A DNA stretch of 64,000 nt. It comes from Arthrobacter sp. zg-Y844 (GTDB lineage: Bacteria; Actinomycetota; Actinomycetes; Actinomycetales; Micrococcaceae). The notes under the pieces are model-generated. The model made no database searches, was not told the DNA's origin, and worked only from the letters and a program-made list of their open reading frames with translations. This document shows positions 10,995 through 12,399 of the stretch, piece after piece. The DNA is taken from contig NZ_JANFLS010000001.1 of NCBI RefSeq assembly GCF_024385465.1, forward strand, positions 1,240,001-1,304,000, in the 5' to 3' direction. Positions within the stretch are counted from its first letter, which is position 1. Each line of letters starts with the position of its first letter. Made by a program: the position numbers and the translations under genes.

Positions 10995-12200
10995 CTACCA
11001 GAGCCGGGCGCTGGCCAGCCGGGCACCTTCTCCGAGCGTCTCCAGCTTGGCCGCCGCGATCTGCGGATGCACCCGGCCGCCCAGCCCGCAGTCGGTGGAC
11101 GCAATGACGTTCTCGCGCCCCACCAGCCGGGCGAACCGTTCAATCCGGTCCGCCACCAGTTCCGGATGTTCCACCACGTTGGTGGCATGGGAGACCACGC
11201 CGGGAATGAGGACCTTCCCCTCCGGCAGCTTGGTATCCTCCCAGACCCGCCATTCGTGCTCATGCCGGACGTTGCCTGCCTCGAAGCTGTAGCCGCCGGC
11301 GTTAATCTGCAGCAGGGTGTCCACCAGGTGGCGGAACTCGATGTCCGTAGTGTGCGGCCCGTGCCAGGAACCCCAGCACAGGTGGAATCGGACCTGTTCC
11401 TCGGGCAGGCCGCGCAGGGCATAGTTCAGGGCCTCGACGCGGATCTGCGTGAACTTGAGGTAGTCGGCCACCGAAGGCTCGGGGTTGATCTGGTCCCAGT
11501 TCTCGGCAATGGACGGATCATCGATCTGGACGATCAGCCCGGCGTCCACGATGGCAAGGTATTCCTCCCGCATGGCATCCGCGCAGGCGTAGATGAACTC
11601 CTCCTCCGTCGCGTAGTACTCGTTGGCAATCCGCGAACAGGAGCCGGGGGAGAGTGAGGCGAGGAAACCCTCGGACAAACCTGCCTCGGCCAGACCGGAC
11701 TTGAGGTTGGCAATGTCGCCGGCCACGGCGTCGTACCCCGTGTATTCCACGGGACCCGTGACCTTGGGAAAGACCTTCTGCGCCCCGGTGGTGATGCCGG
11801 AGGTTGGGTCGGTGTAGGCATCGGCGAAGCGCTGCCGGTCGCGGCGGTCCCCGAAACTGGTGAGGACAACGTTTCCGGGCTCGGAGCGGTGCGGTTCCAT
11901 GTTCCAGATCCCCGTCTCGGCAACGCTCAGGCCGCCAAGCCGGGCAAACGAGTAGGACCACCAGGCCCCGTAGTCGACGTCCGCGGACATCGCATGCCCG
12001 TATTCGCCGTCGTTGGGGATATCGATACCCGCCTGGCGCTGGCGGCGCACGAGGTCGGCGACGGCGGCCTGCAGCAGTTCGGCGTAGCCTTCCGTATCCG
12101 CGGGGTCGGTTTCCCGGGCCGCGTTCGCGGCAATCAGTTCAGGGGTCCGGGGGAGCGAACCGGCGTGCGTGGTCAAAATACGGTCAGTGCTTTTGCGCAT
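10995..12200 (-). CDS. Cobalamin-independent methionine synthase (MetE C-terminal-like)
   Basis: The 401-aa protein opens LTTHAGSLPRTPEL and contains DGEYGH and a C-terminal HxEFRH/DCGLGG pattern typical of the MetE catalytic barrel (COG0620). Full MetE is about 750 aa; this stand-alone barrel form lacks the N-terminal half, and its methyl donor and acceptor are uncertain. ATG 12200 is preceded by AAGGAT. Immediately upstream is a SAM-IV-type riboswitch, which independently links the gene to methionine or methyl-group metabolism. It is probably shut off when S-adenosylmethionine is abundant. Confidence 0.85.
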   Translation of the reverse strand: MRKSTDRILTTHAGSLPRTPELIAANAARETDPADTEGYAELLQAAVADLVRRQRQAGIDIPNDGEYGHAMSADVDYGAWWSYSFARLGGLSVAETGIWNMEPHRSEPGNVVLTSFGDRRDRQRFADAYTDPTSGITTGAQKVFPKVTGPVEYTGYDAVAGDIANLKSGLAEAGLSEGFLASLSPGSCSRIANEYYATEEEFIYACADAMREEYLAIVDAGLIVQIDDPSIAENWDQINPEPSVADYLKFTQIRVEALNYALRGLPEEQVRFHLCWGSWHGPHTTDIEFRHLVDTLLQINAGGYSFEAGNVRHEHEWRVWEDTKLPEGKVLIPGVVSHATNVVEHPELVADRIERFARLVGRENVIASTDCGLGGRVHPQIAAAKLETLGEGARLASARLW

Positions 12201-12206
12201 GGCAGT

Positions 12207-12345
12207 GATCCTTAAGGAATCGGTGCTCTTGCCCGCACCGGATGCCCAAGGGGCGGTGCAGGCCGCTTCGTCATCCGAACCACCCGTGAAGCATGGGGTT
12301 GGTGCACGGCCAAGTCGGAGCTTGGCGGCCGTGTCTCCTGAAGCT
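12207..12345 (-). promoter_or_regulatory. SAM-IV-type (SAM clan) riboswitch
   Basis: Read on the minus strand, a 5-bp P1 (12340-12344 with 12265-12269) encloses a P2 hairpin (12305-12333; two 5-bp helices with a 3-base bulge) and an ACC-CAACCCC-like core with a P3. The P2 loop (12315-12320, TCCGA in sense) can pair with TCGGA at 12274-12279, the SAM-clan pseudoknot. Compared with the mycobacterial SAM-IV sequence I recall, both sides of this pseudoknot have changed together. A following hairpin (12254-12259 with 12235-12240) and a GGGCAAG segment match SAM-IV order. The Shine-Dalgarno AAGGATC lies in a CCTTAAGG palindrome (12207-12221), suggesting translational control. Confidence 0.75.
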
Positions 12346-12399
12346 GGGACCCATCCTAACCACGCCGCAGGGATGCAGCCAAGCATGTGACGGGACGGC

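Follow-up and report, generated by a model that had tools for sequence, protein, structure and literature searches.

The window analysed here, a 64,000-nucleotide stretch of the genome of Arthrobacter sp. zg-Y844, very probably carries on its minus strand a SAM-IV riboswitch, of an ACC/GGU subclass, by which translation of the gene for a 401-aa MetE-like protein (10995..12200) is controlled. At 12343-12220 of that strand the RNA fits the Rfam SAM-IV model (RF00634) over its full length, with 64.4 bits against a cut-off of 38 and an E-value of 4.3e-9 for the whole window. The original prediction had placed a SAM-IV-type riboswitch ahead of a MetE-like gene, and a score 26 bits above the cut-off bears this out; the contrary outcome, that no model of the SAM clan would exceed its cut-off, was looked for and did not occur. 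SAM-IV, and not SAM-I (the S box, RF00162), is the best match within the clan; overlapping matches of the clan were collapsed to the best one, and the window RNA has no separate SAM-I score. By its sequence, the RNA is a member of SAM-IV that falls within the well-separated ACC/GGU subclass.

Fold and covariation of the aptamer

The window RNA has all helices of the SAM-IV fold as published, and both of its pseudoknots. The cryo-EM structure of SAM-IV, in the excerpt of its report used here, consists of five helices and two pseudoknots (PMC6890682), the same set as in the window RNA, and in comparison with that excerpt and RF00634 the window RNA has the same P1, P2a/P2b, P3, P5, PK-1 and PK-2, in the same order and with the same core letters. 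SAM-I belongs to the same Rfam clan and, according to the same excerpt, shares the ligand-binding pocket, but unlike SAM-IV it has a kink-turn in P2, a P4 helix as a rule and no PK-2 (PMC6890682).

On the minus strand, P1 is formed by GCUUC (12340..12344, from the alignment and the letters), which pairs with 12269-12265, and GAAGC (12265..12269, from the alignment). P2 (12304..12335) comprises P2a (12333-12328/12310-12305), the pair G12335-C12304 below the bulge and P2b (12322-12321/12314-12313). P3 (12279..12303) has a lower stem ACC/GGU (12303-12301/12281-12279) and an upper stem CCC/GGG (12298-12296/12285-12283), with A12300 and A12299 opposite U12282. P5 is a hairpin of 10 bp (12231..12263; 12263-12254 with 12240-12231) supported by the Rfam alignment, the predicted fold and the letters. 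The succession of P1, a bulged P2, a CAACCCC core, P3 and a downstream hairpin, which had been recognised as the SAM-IV order from the letters, agrees with this read-out of the elements. In the first pseudoknot, PK-1, UCCGA in the P2 loop (12315..12319) pairs with UCGGA (12274..12278), both strands taken from the alignment. The original prediction was right that the P2 loop forms a pseudoknot; its register, 12315-12320/12274-12279, was one base out, since the true extent is five pairs and 12320 with 12274 would give C-A. A second pseudoknot, PK-2, which had gone unnoticed, joins UGCUU in the P3 loop (12289..12293) to GAGCA (12224..12228), that is, 12293-12289 to 12228-12224; both strands follow from the coupling of loop and tail described below, the latter also from the letters.

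Pairing was examined in 60 aligned aptamers, 35 of the window's kind and 25 canonical, at 25 pairs and thus in 1500 cells. Of 69 picks, 60 were retained in the alignment; the nine dropped are three canonical rows and six of the subclass whose P2 is unusual, and rows longer than 86 nt (the kind with an insert in P2) lie outside it; another alignment (62 of 74 picks) was inspected by eye only. Standard pairs are formed in 98.9% of the cells, compared with 34.7-49.0% in six slid versions of the structure, and 17 of the 25 pairs vary on both sides, so that the structure goes beyond chance. None of 500 shuffles matches the real paired percentage or the covariation score; related sequences being non-independent, these figures and those of the permutations below are not probabilities.

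The comparison of homologues proposed with the original prediction finds both P1 and the P2-loop pseudoknot preserved. P1 is paired in 94.7% of its cells, its outermost pair, unpaired in 15 of the 60 rows, being the weakest element of the structure. In P2, all seven pairs of the P2a helix and both P2b pairs vary on both sides and 100% of the cells are paired. All five PK-1 pairs are standard in every one of the 60 rows and three of them vary on both sides. The P2 loop and its partner had been said to differ from a mycobacterial sequence in a compensated way, and relative to the canonical rows (35 versus 25) the subclass indeed has U-A in place of C-G at one end and A-U in place of G-C at the opposite end; within the subclass, locus L129 shows a further compensated change, UCAGA/UCUGA. 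Because loop lengths vary, PK-2 was assessed apart from the alignment. Its 87 distinct combinations of loop and tail, from 129 of 131 leaders, have a mean helix score of 4.58, compared with 3.94 +/- 0.09 when tails are dealt at random, and none of 2000 permutations scores as high. The window's own combination scores 4.7, and five of the 87 score 3.0 or less. Covariation thus establishes both pseudoknots, and across the 60 rows it extends to P1, P2 and P3.

The fold of the single sequence is unremarkable. Its energy of -56.5 kcal/mol compares with -54.4 +/- 4.0 for shuffled sequences, 58 of 200 of which are as stable (z = -0.53), and the minimum-energy structure of the window RNA contains neither P1 nor the pseudoknots. 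Single-sequence folding was therefore rejected as evidence on the strength of that z value; for a pseudoknotted, GC-rich RNA, an ordinary free-energy fold says little either way.

The ACC/GGU subclass and its downstream genes

The lower P3 of the window RNA reads ACC/GGU and does not have the canonical letters GGC/GCC or their G-U and A-U forms. Since the stem still pairs and the RNA passes the Rfam model, the letters of the lower P3 are not treated here as defining the class. Three SAM-IV matches are found in the window's genome (121.4, 64.4 and 49.2 bits), with both kinds of P3 among them, and each of 29 Arthrobacter genomes has three to seven, 134 in total. Forty of these 134 loci were picked by score group, independently of any pattern: 30, of the low-scoring kinds, have ACC/GGU, and the other ten, of the high-scoring kinds, have GGC/GCC, GGC/GCU or AGC/GCU.

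A pattern scan of named genomes returned at least 119 stretches; most of the matches listed come from Arthrobacter, Kocuria, Glutamicibacter, Paenarthrobacter, Paeniglutamicibacter, Rhodococcus and closely related genera. With the genus set added, the subclass numbers at least 131 distinct leaders, the unique ones among 148 that pass the stricter filter. Under the first filter, seven of 123 pattern hits failed; five of them look like chance hits and two (L127 and L129) were later matched by Rfam. The Rfam SAM-IV model scores above its cut-off, at 41 to 81 bits, in all 18 of the other subclass loci that were scanned out of the 119. A wider pattern that requires three lower-P3 pairs yields 196 unique sequences, of which 132 have ACC/GGU, 48 GGC/GCC, nine GGC/GCU and seven AGC/GCU; among 16 low-scoring class-level hits outside that pattern, the lower P3 is canonical in 14.

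The subclass differs from canonical SAM-IV in this lower P3 (ACC/GGU where the latter has GGC/GCC, GGC/GCU or AGC/GCU), in a PK-1 that is mostly UCCGA/UCGGA and in a P1 of GCUUC/GAAGC in nearly all leaders, although letters demanded by the patterns and filters are invariant by construction and CUUCA was part of the filter. The change in the lower P3 is a clean compensated change beside the ligand pocket, and its flipped pair is not unique to the subclass: the other two of the 16 hits, in a genome of another family (L256 and L258 in G142), have the lower P3 GCC/GGU and GCC/GGC. In the limited literature examined, which was seen in part, neither the subclass nor the exchange of riboswitches described below is reported, and a prior description is possible.

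Several loci of the subclass are unusual in their setting. One (L133), on a contig deposited as Vibrio cholerae, resembles the usual Arthrobacter copies and has a PIN-like gene; it is most likely a contamination or a mislabelled record. At three others (L098, L103 and L107), two copies of the subclass stand in divergent orientation about 300 nt apart, and at L103 and L107 one copy precedes a PIN-like gene and the other a small-protein gene.

Like SAM-IV in general, members of the subclass stand before methionine and sulfur genes. The kinds of downstream genes were determined for the 131 leaders by tblastn of seeds against 1300 nt downstream. Small proteins of three kinds follow 53 leaders, 24 of which also have a VIT1-family gene; a PIN-like gene follows 22 (21, plus one that also has a MetY-like gene), a MetY-like gene ten (nine, plus the one shared with the PIN-like kind), a metE-like gene nine, an ABC solute-binding protein nine and VIT1 alone two, while 27 leaders have none of these kinds. 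Members that were checked exceed the Pfam cut-offs for the MetY-like (PF01053), solute-binding (PF00496) and VIT1 (PF01988) kinds. The MetY-like gene is also found behind a canonical SAM-IV of the window's own genome (L056; PF01053). In Mycobacterium avium, SAM-IV precedes an O-acetylhomoserine sulfhydrylase, according to the part of PMC3774663 consulted.

The label of the PIN-like genes is weak, as two of their proteins match PF01850 under its cut-off (19.5 and 17.3 vs 23.6 bits). By eye these genes are VapC-like and often come after a short ORF. They stand behind subclass RNA at L033, L040, L051, L088, L090, L103, L107, L110, L128, L142, L148, L170, L180 and L185, among others; such a toxin-antitoxin-like pair would apparently lie behind a SAM riboswitch. 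The commonest downstream genes of the subclass encode divergent small proteins of about 90-145 aa (for example L003 1649-2050, L058 1151-1534, L106 886-1269, L076 6701-6982 and L188 4452-4748). Six of these that were scanned have no Pfam or NCBIfam match over cut-off (one line each, far under), and the AlphaFold model of a small protein (mean pLDDT 74) has no PDB match at E <= 0.001.

The metE-like gene and its two classes of riboswitch

The original prediction had called the 401-aa protein methionine-synthase-like. It does belong to the family of the MetE catalytic domain (PF01717, 52.8 bits), but it is not a classical MetE: at 401 aa it falls short of the two-domain length of MetE (about 750 aa), and of the seven NCBIfam models that match it none, and hence no equivalog, exceeds its cut-off. 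In pairwise alignments to solved MetE and MesD, inspected by eye, H273, C275, E307 and C371 line up with the zinc residues and S15, E66 and D227 with the substrate residues that PMC7857596 lists for MetE. By the same alignments, the protein shares with MesA-MesD and MetE, as described there, the MetE catalytic domain and the residues for zinc and homocysteine. Its match to 3rpd, a structure of MesD, reaches no more than 33.6 bits, which sets it apart from MesD. MesX (PF08908), the partner of MesD, is found in none of the 29 Arthrobacter genomes in a search in which no control genome gave a match either, and the same search matches eight of 61 genomes of the family; the MetH-type S-methyl_trans domain (PF02574) is likewise found in none of the 29, and the MetH activation domain was not found in the window's genome. 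On the equivalogs, the MetH domains and the MesX searches, membership of the gene in MesD, MetE or MetH was rejected.

PF01717 matches occur in 22 of the 29 Arthrobacter genomes and are weak (best 36.7 bits); in the window's genome a 388-aa open frame gives a second, weaker one. From a classical MetE one would expect a score far above 36.7 bits, and no textbook methionine synthase was found in the genus. Since there is no MetH-type or MesX gene in these searches and PF01717 matches are weak only, the metE-like gene is, as judged from sequence, an obvious candidate for the synthesis of methionine wherever it occurs, in 22 genomes. The remaining seven genomes are without any PF01717 match, so that the gene is not a universal replacement for MetE, MetH or MesD; some of their species may need methionine or use another route.

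In relatives of the window's lineage, SAM-I stands before the homologous gene. We compared homologues with 53-73% identity. Of 18 that belong to other genera, ten have a SAM-I aptamer immediately ahead of them in the same orientation, as do ten of 11 copies present in ten further genomes of the genus; one of the ten from other genera (41.0 bits) and seven of the ten from the genus (39.4 to 44.3 bits) score under the Rfam cut-off of 44.4. The 22 Arthrobacter genomes with a PF01717 match thus consist of 12 with the gene behind an ACC/GGU SAM-IV and ten with it behind SAM-I. RNA and gene are kept together in the twelve, two of which are of one species. In the protein tree, the 12 distinct proteins behind SAM-IV group together in a single clade (support 99/98) nested within those behind SAM-I, and this clade is sister to the SAM-I clade of the genus (85/95; midpoint root only). 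Because of this nesting, the SAM-IV RNA probably replaced a SAM-I aptamer before the same gene in this Arthrobacter lineage, a single change from SAM-I to SAM-IV being the simplest history. At all 11 fetched SAM-IV loci besides the window, the upstream neighbour is the same peptide-transporter gene, which was not found within some 700 nt upstream at the SAM-I loci, and the swap may have accompanied a move of the gene.

The SAM-I aptamers of the genus depart from the SAM-I consensus. All ten (L275-L284, about 100 nt upstream of the metE-like genes; for example L283 843-939) have UU in place of AA in the pocket (GCUUCC for GCAACC), while AA is kept in the ten SAM-I aptamers from other genera. 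From their sequence, the UU-pocket aptamers are candidates for a changed or lost ligand. Another leader, L235, upstream of a gene starting at 2706 on the minus strand, looks by eye like a SAM-I collapsed by an internal deletion that left both P1 strands, and is perhaps a constitutive derivative.

Ligand and mode of control

A -10 box, TAGGAT (12353..12358), lies just upstream of the aptamer on the minus strand and predicts a transcript start at about 12346-12344, at P1. A putative -35-like hexamer read from the sequence, TTGGCT (12377..12382), stands 18 nt from it and shares four of six letters with the -35 consensus TTGACA. In 125 of 130 relatives, a box that fits the -10 consensus TANNNT has its first base between 22 and 10 nt ahead of P1, most commonly at -13; two equally wide control stretches contain one in five and ten of the 130. 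The position of the promoter is thus conserved, and the transcript should begin at the aptamer.

At the other end, the Shine-Dalgarno sequence AAGGA (12213-12209) lies in the palindrome CCUUAAGG (12207..12221, minus strand), for which a small hairpin GAUUC/GGAUC is predicted; that the Shine-Dalgarno sequence sits in a palindrome right after the aptamer had been claimed before, and the read-out gives CCTTAAGG with the Shine-Dalgarno sequence in it. In the window the Shine-Dalgarno sequence begins 10 nt after PK-2, and the start codon follows the last base of that pseudoknot by 23 nt. We parsed 129 of the 131 leaders, 106 of which have a recognisable Shine-Dalgarno sequence and start. In this subclass, in which alone the spacing and the transcript start at P1 were measured, the Shine-Dalgarno sequence lies 3-11 nt past PK-2 in 94 of the 106 and 20-25 nt past it in the other 12, and the median distance between PK-2 and the start codon is 19 nt. 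The Shine-Dalgarno sequence is covered by a hairpin of 3 bp or longer in 42 of 81 distinct leaders, compared with 26.3 +/- 3.2 for shuffled spacers (the highest of 500 being 36); it is present in all nine distinct leaders of the window's gene type and missing in 39 of the 81. No alternative pairing was found whose balance the ligand might shift. In the fold, GCA in PK-2 pairs with UGC before the start codon, as if PK-2 and the hairpin competed; as orthologous leaders, L037 and L038 for example, lack this partner, the idea was rejected as a mechanism of general use.

These features suggest how the element may work. RNA polymerase would start at P1, so that the aptamer would be made first; S-adenosylmethionine, when plentiful, would bind in the core between P1 and P3 and fix P1 and the two pseudoknots in place; and the closed aptamer together with the hairpin around the Shine-Dalgarno sequence would keep the ribosome off, leaving the gene off. 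Binding is accordingly modelled as turning the gene off, and control as acting at translation. The ligand is presumed to be S-adenosylmethionine because homologous genes carry SAM-I aptamers and the subclass has MetY-like genes downstream. Three points temper this assignment: the lower P3, which adjoins the ligand pocket, departs from the canonical letters; the small-protein and PIN-like genes (53 and 22 of 131 leaders) have no known tie to methionine; and the SAM-I aptamers of the genus, with UU in the pocket, may themselves have a changed ligand or none, those of other genera having AA.

A broader reading, which we regard as unlikely, is that the ACC/GGU RNAs form a SAM-IV subclass of their own whose ligand recognition has shifted within the methionine cycle; taken with the UU-pocket SAM-I aptamers on the same gene in sister species, they would be a case of two architectures that exchange places, and possibly ligands, on one gene within a genus, while the subclass has spread to PIN-like and small-protein genes. 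It is quite improbable, too, that the subclass keeps the SAM-IV fold and has changed its ligand within the methionine cycle, for instance to SAH or another adenosyl compound, through the pairs beside the pocket. The division of the 40 genus loci into 30 with ACC/GGU and ten with xGC/GCx, the co-occurrence of both kinds in the window's genome and the several downstream genes without a known link to S-adenosylmethionine speak for such a change. However, the ligand contacts G11, C44, A45, A46, U57 and G58 (SAM-I numbering) are unchanged in the window RNA; the subclass is found before MetY-like genes and the window's gene is under SAM-I control in relatives; and the flip need not mean a new ligand, because L256 and L258 also have C-G at the flipped pair.

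With S-adenosylmethionine retained as the likely ligand, control could still be exerted by transcription termination and not at the ribosome. Many riboswitches, especially the S boxes of Firmicutes, work in this way. For the window RNA this is very improbable, as the 23 nt to the start codon are read out without a hairpin and T run and the corresponding median in the subclass is as short as 19 nt; the hairpin with trailing T residues at 12443-12402 is upstream of the aptamer, after the preceding peptide-transporter gene, and is by its look the terminator of that gene. That the element is a decayed or non-functional copy is hardly credible: it has about half the score of the best SAM-IV of its genome (64.4 vs 121.4 bits), but the lower score reflects a subclass consensus conserved with compensating changes over many species, and RNA and gene stay together in twelve genomes, with the same upstream neighbour at the 11 other loci.

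Translational control by a SAM-IV riboswitch of the ACC/GGU subclass is therefore the reading we prefer. As an element it is a known kind of switch, and its possible use lies in the natural experiment around it. The small-protein and PIN-like genes downstream of the subclass may belong to a SAM-controlled regulon. Within one genus, a single metE-like gene stands behind SAM-I in ten genomes and behind SAM-IV in 12, which offers a natural experiment on the replacement of one riboswitch class by another.
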